Assembly: GCA_027013295.1 (NCBI GenBank)
Contig: JALUXP010000082.1
Location: 1-50,962 of the forward strand
DNA length: 50,962 bases
DNA from: Sulfurimonas sp.
GTDB taxonomy: Bacteria > Campylobacterota > Campylobacteria > Campylobacterales > Sulfurimonadaceae
Reading direction: 5' to 3'
This document shows positions 20,163 through 45,494 of this stretch, piece after piece. Position numbers and translations under genes: made by a program. The notes below the pieces were generated by a model that made no database searches, was not told the DNA's origin, and saw nothing but the letters and a program-made list of their open reading frames with translations. The number at the start of each line of letters is the position of its first letter. Position 1 is the stretch's first letter.

Positions 20163-20852
20163 ATGACGCAAAATGTTCAAGTACTAGAAGAAAATCTAGG
20201 CTATAAATTTCAATCAACAAAGCTCATTACCGAAGCGCTGACGCACAAAAGCCATAAGCAGCCCTACGATAATGAGCGTTTAGAATTTTTAGGAGATGCA
20301 GTATTGGATTTGATAGTTGGAGAGTTTTTATATTTGAAATTTCCAAAGTCAAATGAGGGTAAACTTTCCAAAATAAGAGCATCTCTGGTAAATGAGGATG
20401 GTTTTTATAAATTGGCACTTTATTTAGATCTTGGCTCATTTATAAATATGTCTAATGCAGAACAAAACAATGGTGGAAGAGAAAAATCATCTTTACTTTC
20501 TAACGCATTTGAGGCTATCATGGGAGCAATCTATCTTGAGTCAGGTTTAGAAGTGACAAAAAAAATTGCTCTTGAACTCATAGATAAAAATTATGAAAGA
20601 ATCTCTTTAGATGAGCTTTCTCAAGATTATAAAACAGCACTTCAAGAGTTGACTCAGGCAAGATTTGGTGTAATTCCAGAGTATGATGTTGTCGCTTCTC
20701 GTGGACCTGACCACCAAAAAGAGTTTGAGGTTGCAGTCCTCATAGAGAACAAAGAGTATGCAAGAGCTGTTGGCAAAAGTAAAAAGATAGCGCAACAAGA
20801 GGCTGCCAAAATAGCCTTAGCATCTTTTAAAAATGGGGATAAAAGTGAATAG
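20163..20852 (+). CDS. rnc: Ribonuclease III
   Basis: RNase III cuts double-stranded RNA in rRNA precursors and structured mRNAs. The 229-residue protein has the signature NERLEFLGDAVLDLIVGEFL (about 38-57), the second acidic site EAIMGAIYLESG (about 118-129) and a C-terminal double-stranded RNA-binding domain (about 155-222, ending KKIAQQEAAKIAL). Length and catalytic residues are normal. AAAAGG precedes the ATG. Its end overlaps aroC. Confidence 0.97.
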   Translation: MTQNVQVLEENLGYKFQSTKLITEALTHKSHKQPYDNERLEFLGDAVLDLIVGEFLYLKFPKSNEGKLSKIRASLVNEDGFYKLALYLDLGSFINMSNAEQNNGGREKSSLLSNAFEAIMGAIYLESGLEVTKKIALELIDKNYERISLDELSQDYKTALQELTQARFGVIPEYDVVASRGPDHQKEFEVAVLIENKEYARAVGKSKKIAQQEAAKIALASFKNGDKSE

Positions 20853-39291: not shown

Positions 39292-41043
39292 ATGCACAAA
39301 ATACTTTTTATTATCTTCCTCATAACAAACATATACGCAACACAACAAACGCACTCTGTTTGTAATGGACATGGCGAAATAAAATACACCAATGCTACCT
39401 ATGTAGGTGAATGTAGCAATAATAAAAGAGAGGGACAAGGTGTTCTTAGATTTGAAAATACTGAAAGCTATGAAGGTAGCTGGAAGATGGACAAACGCAA
39501 TGGTCAAGGTCGTTATACTTATGCAAATGGTATGGTTTATGATGGGAATTGGGTTGATGACACAAAAGAGGGAAAAGCTACTTTGACCTACCCTGATGGC
39601 TCTATCTACACAGGAGAATTTCATAAAGATAAACTCACGGGAAAAGGAAAGTTTATCTACGCATCTGGCGACATATATGAGGGTTCATTTTTAAACTCTA
39701 AGCGAGAAGGGCAAGGAGTGTTAATCTATGTAGATGGTGCTAGATATGAGGGAGCATGGCACAATGATAATAAAAATGGATATGGAAAACAAACTTACCC
39801 TTCTGGTGCATACTACGAAGGTGATTGGGTCAACAATGCAAAAGATGGCAAGGGGATCTATGTAGATAGAACGGGGTCAAAATATGAGGGTGCGTTTAAA
39901 AACAATCAACGCAATGGATATGGTGTCCTTACATACGCAAATAAAAGAGTGTATGAGGGAAATTGGCTCAACGACCTGCGTGAGGGTAAAGGGAAAATCC
40001 TATACCAAGATGGCAAAATATTTTTTGGTTCATGGCACAAAGATAAAAAAGAGGGCATTGGGAGTGAACTCACACAATACGGTCTTTGCAAAGGGATATG
40101 GAAAGATTCAAAACTGATCGAAGTGACAAATGAGATCTCCACAAAAGAGGCATACCAATACTTCAATACCTTACGCCAACAAGCTGGTATGATAGCTCTC
40201 AAACCAAATAAAATCTTGCAAAAATCTGCCAAGAGCCATTCTCGTTATATTGAGTTACACCATAAGAGCATCAAAGGTTTACAGCTCCATCATGAAGTGC
40301 GTGGCAAAAAGGGTTTTACAGGCAAAACTCCGAGTGATAGAGCGATAGCACAAGGATACTTTTCAAACAATATAGGTGAGGGCATCTCTAACTTTTGTAC
40401 AGCAAAAGAGTCTATCAACTCTTTAATGACAGCAATCTATCATAGATTTGGTGTTTTATCTTTTTCTAAAGATGAGGTGGGCATCGGGTTTACAAATGAT
40501 CCAAAGATACTAGATCGAAATTTTGTGCACAATATGGGAAGTTCAAGATTAAATCAACTTTGTCAGGGGAGCAGTGCTTGGATAGGTTATTATTATGAAA
40601 AAGTATGTGCCGATCCAAAATTTAAAGTCAAAAAAGAGCCTTACGATAAAGCAAAAGCAAGCATAAGAGGACAAAATCCCGAGTATGTACTTTGGCCAAG
40701 TGCAAACTCTAAAAACAATCTCTACTATTTTCAAAATGAGATCCCAAATCCGATGCCGGGCTTCGCTAAAACAGGGAATCCTATCTCGGTTGAGTTTAAT
40801 CCCTATTATTTCTCCAAAAAAGTTATGATGCACTCATTTAAGCTCTTTAAAAACAACAAAGAGATTAAAAACAACAAGATACTCACAAAAAAAACAGATC
40901 CAAATAAAAAATTTACAAGACTCCAGTATGCTTTGTTTCCTCTGGATGTACTTGCGCGAAATGCTGTTTACAATGTAGAGTTTAAATACAGCTACAATGG
41001 TTCTATAGATACGATAAAGTGGACTTTTACCACTATGAAGTAG
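39292..41043 (+). CDS. Secreted MORN-repeat protein with C-terminal CAP (SCP-like) domain
   Basis: 583 residues: a signal peptide (ILFIIFLITNIYA, about 3-15), then about ten MORN repeats (about 25-275; e.g. YEGSWKMDKRNGQGRYTYANG, YEGAWHNDNKNGYGKQTYPSG). After these comes a CAP/SCP-like domain (about 285-420: EAYQYFNTLRQQAGMIAL, SAKSHSRYIELHH, NIGEGISNF) and a C-terminal beta domain of unknown kind. MORN repeats bind lipid or carbohydrate surfaces; bacterial CAP domains are secreted and mostly uncharacterised. The combination suggests a cell-envelope surface protein. It is a single gene with AAAGG before the ATG. Confidence 0.8.
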   Translation: MHKILFIIFLITNIYATQQTHSVCNGHGEIKYTNATYVGECSNNKREGQGVLRFENTESYEGSWKMDKRNGQGRYTYANGMVYDGNWVDDTKEGKATLTYPDGSIYTGEFHKDKLTGKGKFIYASGDIYEGSFLNSKREGQGVLIYVDGARYEGAWHNDNKNGYGKQTYPSGAYYEGDWVNNAKDGKGIYVDRTGSKYEGAFKNNQRNGYGVLTYANKRVYEGNWLNDLREGKGKILYQDGKIFFGSWHKDKKEGIGSELTQYGLCKGIWKDSKLIEVTNEISTKEAYQYFNTLRQQAGMIALKPNKILQKSAKSHSRYIELHHKSIKGLQLHHEVRGKKGFTGKTPSDRAIAQGYFSNNIGEGISNFCTAKESINSLMTAIYHRFGVLSFSKDEVGIGFTNDPKILDRNFVHNMGSSRLNQLCQGSSAWIGYYYEKVCADPKFKVKKEPYDKAKASIRGQNPEYVLWPSANSKNNLYYFQNEIPNPMPGFAKTGNPISVEFNPYYFSKKVMMHSFKLFKNNKEIKNNKILTKKTDPNKKFTRLQYALFPLDVLARNAVYNVEFKYSYNGSIDTIKWTFTTMK

Positions 41044-43450: not shown

Positions 43451-44416
43451 TTATTCCCAGTCTAAAAGTCTTTGTTGCCCCTCTAGTGAACGGATGTGCG
43501 TTACATCTTGGCTTACTTCGATAACCCCTTTGTAAGCACCTTCATCGTCACGAATAGCAAAATAACGGATATGGATAAATTTGCCTTTGAAGTTGATCCA
43601 AAATTCTGCTTCATCTCTACGACCTGCTTTAAACTCACGAAGTATCATAAGCACCTGTTCTACTGACTTTGGTGGGTGACAAAACTTTACTTCCCTACCG
43701 ATAATCCCTGCACTTCTAGGGAACACTCTAGCATCCCCACGATTATAAAAGATGACAATGTCGTTTTCATCTACATAGGTAATATCTACAGGCATAAACT
43801 TTAAAAGCCAGTTGATCTGTTCTGGAAGCATATGCCCTACATCTAGGTCTATGCGGTTTTCAAGGGAAAAAGGGAGTTTTCTTTTTGTTGTGTCTTGTGA
43901 TGGATGGATATACTCATCTTCTGTGTGTACTGGCCAAGCAGGTGGTGGTGTTTCAAACATCCAGCCAATCTCCTCATCACCATCACGCATCTCCATCCAG
44001 TCACTCTCTTGGAGCATCTCTAAAGCACGAGGAAGTAGGCGACCCTCTTCAACCTGCATGATATGCTCTAAGTTTTGAAAAAGATTTTGGAGAGTCATAC
44101 TCAGAGATGCAAACTCTTTTGTCGTGATGAGCTGTCGCGTCATCTTAAAGATGGCACGAATATCATCATGAAATGCCCACATATTTTGTGATGGGGATGT
44201 CCAACCATATTGTTCTAAGTAGGGAAAAAGTTGATTTTCTTTTCTTGCAAAATGCTTTTCAGTGAGTGAAAGTTTTGCATACAAAGCTTCAAAGGTCTCA
44301 AAGTCAGCACCGATGTCGATGGCATTAATATCACTCATAAGTGAACGGATAAGTTGGTTTTCTTCTAAGTAAACACGAGCAGGATGCCCTTGGGGTAGAT
44401 TTGAAAAAGAGTTCAT
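43451..44416 (-). CDS. Hemerythrin-like/PAS protein (DUF438-related)
   Basis: 321 residues with two parts. The N-terminal half (about 1-170) has the spaced His/Glu pattern of hemerythrin-like domains: HPARVYLEENQLIRSL, EKHFARKENQLFPYLEQYGW, WAFHDDIRAIF and EHIMQVEEGRLLPRA. The C-terminal half (about 195-318) is a PAS domain (DITYVDENDIVIFYNRGDAR, then YKGVIEVSQDVTHIRSLEGQ). This arrangement is typical of DUF438-type proteins, thought to sense oxygen or nitric oxide at a di-iron site; no output domain is attached. It is convergent with dbpA, and its upstream region is the long palindromic element. Confidence 0.8.
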   Translation of the reverse strand: MNSFSNLPQGHPARVYLEENQLIRSLMSDINAIDIGADFETFEALYAKLSLTEKHFARKENQLFPYLEQYGWTSPSQNMWAFHDDIRAIFKMTRQLITTKEFASLSMTLQNLFQNLEHIMQVEEGRLLPRALEMLQESDWMEMRDGDEEIGWMFETPPPAWPVHTEDEYIHPSQDTTKRKLPFSLENRIDLDVGHMLPEQINWLLKFMPVDITYVDENDIVIFYNRGDARVFPRSAGIIGREVKFCHPPKSVEQVLMILREFKAGRRDEAEFWINFKGKFIHIRYFAIRDDEGAYKGVIEVSQDVTHIRSLEGQQRLLDWE

Positions 44417-44453: not shown

Positions 44454-44459
44454 TATAAT
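44454..44459 (+). promoter_or_regulatory. -10 box placed to start transcription at the palindrome
   Basis: TATAAT in TTGTATAATTTTGAG. A start 6-7 bases downstream coincides with the first base of the inverted repeat at 44466. No -35 element is obvious. Confidence 0.45.
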
Positions 44460-44465
44460 TTTGAG

Positions 44466-44637
44466 ATTATCCCAAATTATGCAATAGGGATTTCTAAAAT
44501 TTTCCCATGCTTGTGTCCAAGGGATGTTTAGCAAAAATGATAAGCCACCTTATTGGTGGTGGTCATTTTTGATGAATGTCCATTGGGTGCAATGATAGGT
44601 AAAGTTTTTAATTTTCTATTGCATAATTTGGGATTAT
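44466..44637 (+). repeat. 172-bp imperfect palindrome: long-hairpin RNA gene or MITE
   Basis: The outer 22-base arms (44466-44487 and 44616-44637) match as inverted copies with one mismatch. The symmetry continues to the centre (CCACC, TTATT, GGTGG at 44545-44559) without any length difference between the arms. In the inner arms I count about nine mismatches that become G-U pairs in a plus-strand RNA and one that would do so on the minus strand, so the plus-strand hairpin is the better fold. It fills most of the 391-base gap between the hemerythrin/PAS gene and tonB. A short plus-strand frame at 44553-44801 overlaps its right half but shows no protein character. Confidence 0.7.
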
Positions 44638-44639
44638 AC
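44634..44639 (-). promoter_or_regulatory. Possible -10 box for the hemerythrin/PAS gene
   Basis: TATAAT on the minus strand (GGGTATAATCCC). Transcription from here would run through the palindrome and give the gene at 44416 a leader of about 210 bases that folds as a hairpin. Confidence 0.35.
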
Positions 44640-44704
44640 CCTCATAAAGAGAGTTCTCTTTTGATATATGACAATAATTTAACAATTTTTTTACATACAA
44701 AGCC

Positions 44705-44807: not shown

Positions 44808-45494
44808 ATGCAAAACAAATATATAAGATTTTTTATTTATGCTTTTTTTATTATAGGTGTGATACTGATGCCCGTAGATTTGCCAAAAGAGAAGATAAAA
44901 CAGATGCCGCTAAAATCAAATGTTGTGAGTATAACATTGATACAGCCACCTCAAAAAAAGAAAGTTCTTAAAAGAGTTATAAAAAAACCAAAACCAAAAA
45001 AAAAGCCAAGGAAAAAGCCAAGGAAAAAGCCGAAGCTGATTGTCAAAAAGATAGAACAAAAAACTGAACCCATTGTGAAAAAAGAACCTAAGATAGAACA
45101 AAAACAAGAGCTAGAGGTAAAAAAAGAGGAGATCATCCCTCAAAAGGTAGAGGTGAAAACCGAAGATGACCTAGAACAAAAACGAGAGTTGGCACTTGCA
45201 AAACAAGCTGAGAAAACTTACTACGATACTATCTATGAAGTGATATCACAGAATAAACGCTATCCAAAACGAGCAAGGCGATACAAAAAAGAGGGGAGTG
45301 TTAAAGTGAGTTTTAAAGTGATGCAAGATGGAAGTATTGTAAACTTGCAACTCATAGAACTCTCCAAACATAAGAGTTTAAACACGGCGACAAAAAAACT
45401 TTTTGAAAGACTTGGAAGTTTTCCCAAACCACCAAACAATCTAAGTTTCCCACTAGAACTTAGCATTACGATAAACTACAAACTAAGAAGGTAA
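44808..45494 (+). CDS. tonB: TonB family energy-transducing protein
   Basis: TonB couples the inner-membrane proton gradient to outer-membrane receptors. The 228-residue protein has an N-terminal anchor (IRFFIYAFFIIGVILMP, about 5-21), a Lys/Pro-rich spacer (about 50-80, e.g. KKPKPKKKPRKKPRKKPK) and a C-terminal TonB domain (about 140-228: RYPKRARRYKKEGSVKVSF, then GSFPKPPNNLSFPLELSI). It starts an operon with exbB and exbD, 3 and 1 bases apart. The substrate (iron, haem, copper or other) is not shown. Confidence 0.9.
   Translation: MQNKYIRFFIYAFFIIGVILMPVDLPKEKIKQMPLKSNVVSITLIQPPQKKKVLKRVIKKPKPKKKPRKKPRKKPKLIVKKIEQKTEPIVKKEPKIEQKQELEVKKEEIIPQKVEVKTEDDLEQKRELALAKQAEKTYYDTIYEVISQNKRYPKRARRYKKEGSVKVSFKVMQDGSIVNLQLIELSKHKSLNTATKKLFERLGSFPKPPNNLSFPLELSITINYKLRR

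Follow-up and report, generated by a model that had tools for sequence, protein, structure and literature searches.

A MITE with IS1380-type ends in Campylobacterales and the apparent conservation of a strand-specific fold in its moving lineage

Does the long imperfect palindrome upstream of a hemerythrin/PAS gene of Sulfurimonas sp. represent a folded RNA, a MITE (a non-autonomous transposable element), or both? The window analysed here, 50,962 nt of contig JALUXP010000082.1 (assembly GCA_027013295.1), contains an inverted repeat with 75-nt arms (44466–44540 and 44563–44637) that are 75% complementary and enclose 22 nt. An earlier note on this DNA, which treated folded RNA and MITE as alternatives, had described an indel-free imperfect palindrome of 172 bp, and this description was borne out at 44466–44637. 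Its count of about nine G-U mismatches on the plus strand against one on the minus strand was reproduced when the 162-bp element defined below was compared along its ungapped axis (9 on plus, 1 on minus). The fold energies of both strands, whose calculation the note had proposed, were computed for a 221-nt query: the plus-strand RNA folds at -85.2 kcal/mol against -44.6 for its shuffles (z -9.2) and the minus-strand RNA at -66.4 kcal/mol against -33.5 (z -9.0). Each native fold was more stable than every shuffle of its strand, and plus is the more stable strand.

A search of the genome and its relatives returned copies, target duplications and empty sites, the outcome by which the note would have recognised a MITE, and the window palindrome is a MITE with IS1380-type ends. 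The 172 bp consist of a 162-bp element (44471–44632, plus strand, plus being the one whose RNA fold is conserved and more stable) and two ATTAT target-site duplications (44466–44470 and 44633–44637). Its boundaries were taken from the empty sites and from 11 aligned copies of the genus, each 162 bp long (one 163 bp), which have the ends CCCRAATTATGCAATAG in common and whose similarity breaks off at the same point on both sides. The termini are CCCRAATTWTGCAATAG; the left terminal inverted repeat, CCCAAATTATGCAATAG (44471–44487, plus strand), has an exact inverted copy at 44616–44632 (minus strand), and this 17-bp end occurs at 22 sites in the home genome with at most two mismatches, against 0 for the reversed control. 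Three relatives (G579, G561 and G567) lack the insertion: ahead of the same hemerythrin/PAS gene, their intergenic sequence runs through without a break and carries a single ATTAT in place of the ATTAT-element-ATTAT of the window, which makes this a clean empty site and defines the 5-bp target duplication. Exact 5-bp duplications flank 50 of 94 family copies (0.14 expected by chance), and the flanking bases are alike at four or more of the five positions in 69 of 94 (about 2 expected). Terminal inverted repeats, a target duplication with empty sites and a short, multicopy sequence are all present, and the non-coding nature of the element is seen in copy lengths that vary by steps other than 3. 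The home genome holds one further full copy at 95% identity and one half copy, besides several sequences that are short derivatives or single ends. Two derivatives of about 50 bp (L064, G000 C102:311–360; L069, G000 C121:3141–3191) are reduced to the two ends plus roughly the first 15 inner bases, without the remainder of the hairpin; such short forms may still be moving or may be deletion products.

The window copy lies upstream of the gene for a hemerythrin plus PAS domain protein (43451–44416, minus strand, Pfam) and has a TonB-like protein gene as its other neighbour (44808–45494, plus strand, Pfam). The insertion abuts the probable -10 box of the hemerythrin/PAS gene, a TATAAT at 44633–44638 on the minus strand (GTATAATCC) that is conserved at the uninterrupted site of G579, G561 and G567. 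Since the right duplication preserves this box, a transcript driven by it would start within the element and take in its minus strand as a leader. The copy thus probably lies just downstream of the box and would form the minus-strand leader of the gene, an option that the earlier note had raised and that the conservation of the box in three relatives supports. The plus-strand TATAAT (44454–44459) that the note had taken for a promoter at the repeat edge is in the stated place, with an expected start at about 44466, but it lies in flanking DNA outside the element and is found in the empty site of G579 and not in those of G561 or G567; judged from these sites, it is older flanking sequence and not part of the feature. 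Inside the element, the promoter search gave nothing above shuffles. The RNase III gene to which the note had linked the hairpin is in the window (20163–20852), but nothing ties it to the element, RNase III being nearly universal in bacteria. Elsewhere in the window, 39292–41043 encodes a 583-aa protein with eight MORN repeats ahead of a CAP (cysteine-rich secretory protein) domain, a combination that looks unusual.

The element was found in 12 of 99 relatives, home genome included. A covariance model built from 15 copies detected full-length relatives of 160–166 bp in 48 of 399 Campylobacterales genomes, representing 17 of 87 genera and about 10 families of sulfur-cycling and related bacteria. 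Matches per genome, both strands counted, range from 13 to 57 (the latter in one 2.2-Mb genome), and copies per genome reach about 50. Named records with copies include Sulfurimonas, Sulfurovum and Sulfurospirillum MAGs, and the Sulfurimonas copy L190 is identical to L132, a copy from the genus of the window. Identity reaches 88% between families (L044 and L127) and falls to 56% within families; that cross-family copies are closer than some within-family copies points to horizontal transfer, and we read this as a sign of movement of the element between families. Plasmid and phage collections gave no match to the element; Rfam 15 gave no match in the window region at E up to 1 and, at the gathering score, none covering the element in seven related loci. 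A literature search on MITEs with IS1380, Sulfurimonas or Sulfurovum did not turn up this element. Bacteroidota, Chlorobiota and one Elusimicrobia MAG contain elements that share its ends and duplication but differ in the interior. We do not claim the Bacteroidota relatives, which were found by their ends, as the same RNA family, given their different interior and a weaker asymmetry (41:19, oriented post hoc). One element with the same ends and a different interior (L185, 1635–1801, uncultured Dokdonia record) adjoins a cluster of nine tRNA genes, and in the Elusimicrobia MAG, far outside the order, these ends delimit a palindrome of 157 bp that is flanked by TTAAA (L203, 378–534).

The 5-bp AT-rich duplication and the ends starting with CC led us to predict an IS1380-type transposase, and PF13701 was searched. 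The termini of the MITE, the length of its duplication and its AT-rich targets match IS1380-family transposons of related genomes. G262 contains four IS1380 elements of 1661–1662 bp with perfect 17-bp ends, CCCAAATCCGTAAATAG, duplications of TTAAA, ATCAT, TTTAT and ATTAT and a transposase assigned to NF033539 at E 5e-100; an intact element of G262, present in four copies, is that of L155, 1341–3001. G134 contains a 1.2-kb IS1380 element with a broken transposase and an end, CCCAGATTTTGCAATAG, close to those used by the MITE family. The IS1380 family (NF033539, PF13701) and the MITE thus share 17-bp terminal repeats that start with CCC and end with AATAG and 5-bp AT-rich duplications (G262, G134), whereas the MITE has no transposase and no sequence in common with the family beyond the ends. 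Because no PF13701 transposase was detected in the home genome or in most copy-carrying genomes, few carriers having one, the helper role that we infer for an IS1380 transposase rests on the ends and the duplications. The MITE covariance model found nothing inside the examined IS1380 loci, and the inner hairpin was accordingly rejected as a part of IS1380 elements. Other candidates were also dismissed: two PF01609 matches of the home genome lie on contigs without the ends of the element, a second transposase of G153 with a weak PF13701 score has different ends, and a candidate autonomous element of the home genome (C23:89780–92013) encloses no transposase and has two unrelated ends, the genes within it being presumably RNase H-like and chloride-channel-like from their ORF sequences.

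The fold was followed across the family. Across all 44 copies, drawn from about ten families, plus is, after orientation of the copies, the more stable strand (mean MFE -81 against -52 kcal/mol), with 9.6 G-U pairs per copy against 1.3 on the minus strand. Since G-U pairs could be favoured by the folding step, we added a comparison of the two arms at the DNA level, scored symmetrically for the strands; it gave 427 G-U against 74 A-C differences, and all 44 copies lean the same way. A second copy set, whose bias is slightly inflated by its orientation by fold energy, gave 268:31. The compensatory changes that the earlier note had proposed to look for are present: in an alignment not fitted to the structure, 92.8% of cells are paired, double changes occur at 35 of 62 pairs, and the covariation score reaches 0.423, compared with 0.175 shuffled and about 0.10 slid, although in a palindrome arm-to-arm correction of the DNA can also yield covariation. 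Individual pairs vary among G-U, A-U and G-C, the pattern to be expected if pairing passes through wobble intermediates. The suggestion of the note that selection acts on a folded plus-strand RNA therefore holds, with regard to the folded strand, at the level of the family, where the G-U asymmetry is old, family-wide and accompanied by compensatory change; it does not hold as an alternative to a MITE, since the evidence supports both. A separate feature of the family alignment (A1, columns 38–43 and 125–130) is a 2x2 internal loop (GC against UG) in which ATGCT faces AATGAT; it is nearly invariant across families and may serve as a motif recognised by a protein or an RNA.

The asymmetry could also arise in an ordinary MITE, in which the hairpin is a by-product of long inverted repeats and mutation is strand-biased. 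The element has every feature of a MITE, MITE transcripts usually fold (PMC10969869), and C-to-T and A-to-G changes on one strand would give G-U pairs without selection. We scored changes private to single copies in G097 (37 copies) and in G231 with G372 (24 copies) and found 21 G-U and 20 A-C changes at paired positions, plus 37 pair-breaking transversions, whereas the consensus arm differences are 20 G-U versus 2 A-C (Fisher one-sided p 0.0013 against the private 21:20). Strand-biased mutation thus does not explain the bias: mutation is symmetric, old changes have been filtered and resident copies drift. Changes common to several copies within genomes are intermediate and weakly biased (34 G-U to 22 A-C), which places the selection signal mainly in older divergence. 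The simplest reading is that selection acted on the mobile lineage and not on each insertion. One strand is kept foldable while copies lie in both orientations to genes, which argues for selection of a defined strand and not for a general harmlessness of read-through RNA. With copies in both orientations (21 and 16 in G097), a bias that recurs in every copy across about ten families and pairs that switch between G-U and both Watson-Crick forms, the ordinary MITE is an improbable explanation.

We give equally little credence to the idea that the host has selected each insertion as an RNA regulator, be it a leader, an RNase III substrate or an element affecting mRNA stability, on the model put forward for NEMIS and ERIC. 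In its favour, RNase III cleaves NEMIS transcripts and the effect of ERIC on mRNA decay depends on its orientation (PMC10969869, PMC2229807), the window copy adjoins a conserved -10 box, and there is a mild excess of copies directed at the downstream gene (56 to 35). However, private mutations break pairs freely (37 transversions versus 21 G-U changes), orientation to the upstream gene is unbiased (39 to 51), and positions are not shared, the three nearest relatives having an empty site. The selected molecule might instead be plus-strand single-stranded DNA, for instance a hairpin in transposition or replication. DNA hairpins tolerate G-T mismatches better than A-C, which could yield the same asymmetry, but clean duplications of 5 bp, together with the paired terminal repeats, speak for double-strand DDE transposition, and with both orientations present lagging-strand effects should average out; we regard this explanation, too, as rather unlikely. 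The conservation of a strand-specific fold in the moving lineage is well supported.

We consider it likely that the element is a MITE moved in trans by an IS1380-type transposase, and that one strand of the element is kept foldable in the moving lineage for the sake of its propagation. In the hypothetical mechanism that we propose, (i) an IS1380-type DDE transposase would recognise the 17-bp ends, move the MITE in trans and duplicate 5 AT-rich bases; (ii) the full-length imperfect hairpin between the ends would be kept foldable on one strand via G-U pairs; (iii) a transcript of the kept strand would, most simply, fold into a rod; (iv) the fold would be selected in the lineage of copies still moving while inserted copies drift, so that the folded strand would most likely serve the propagation of the element itself and not the host at each site. 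We infer that the selected molecule is RNA rather than single-stranded DNA. A more specific and doubtful version is a mobile non-coding RNA required for its own DDE transposition or spread, in which the putative folded plus-strand transcript recruits the IS1380 transposase or a host factor; if true, DNA transposition would depend on an RNA fold in a system that is otherwise of the ordinary cut-and-paste type. The usual view of hairpin MITEs is that they are decayed transposons with an incidental RNA fold. The 160–166-bp family has kept a strand-specific fold despite divergence to less than 60% identity while moving between bacterial families, so that whether a MITE requires its RNA becomes directly testable, and the Campylobacterales gain a mobile structured element absent from Rfam.

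Among known repeats, the element differs from the GTAG- or CGTC-tagged 20–40-bp palindromes of REP/RAYT in its ends, CCCRAATTWTGCAATAG, and its 162 bp, and it matches none of the curated covariance models of RNA families in Rfam 15. QMITE2 of Coxiella burnetii is likewise a long palindromic MITE with a predicted transcript of one hairpin, but has 7–9-bp duplications and was described in C. burnetii, and the accessible part of its description reports no strand-specific conservation (PMC5896051). ERIC, too, is a short, mostly intergenic, non-coding mobile palindrome with a folding transcript, for which orientation-dependent RNA effects have been reported (PMC2229807); it differs in its conserved sequence of 127 bp (PMC2759123) and its occurrence in Enterobacteriaceae and Vibrionaceae (PMC10969869), whereas the window family has 160–166 bp (162 bp in the window), Campylobacterales as hosts and IS1380-type ends. 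The NEMIS/Correia elements are MITEs with a hairpin transcript, as predicted here, for which RNase III cleavage has been shown (PMC10969869); they are Neisseria elements of 107 or 155 bp (PMC2229807) with TA at their termini, in contrast to the 160–166 bp, 5-bp duplication and CCC termini of the window family. We place the element among the hairpin MITEs, a known kind that includes ERIC and NEMIS.
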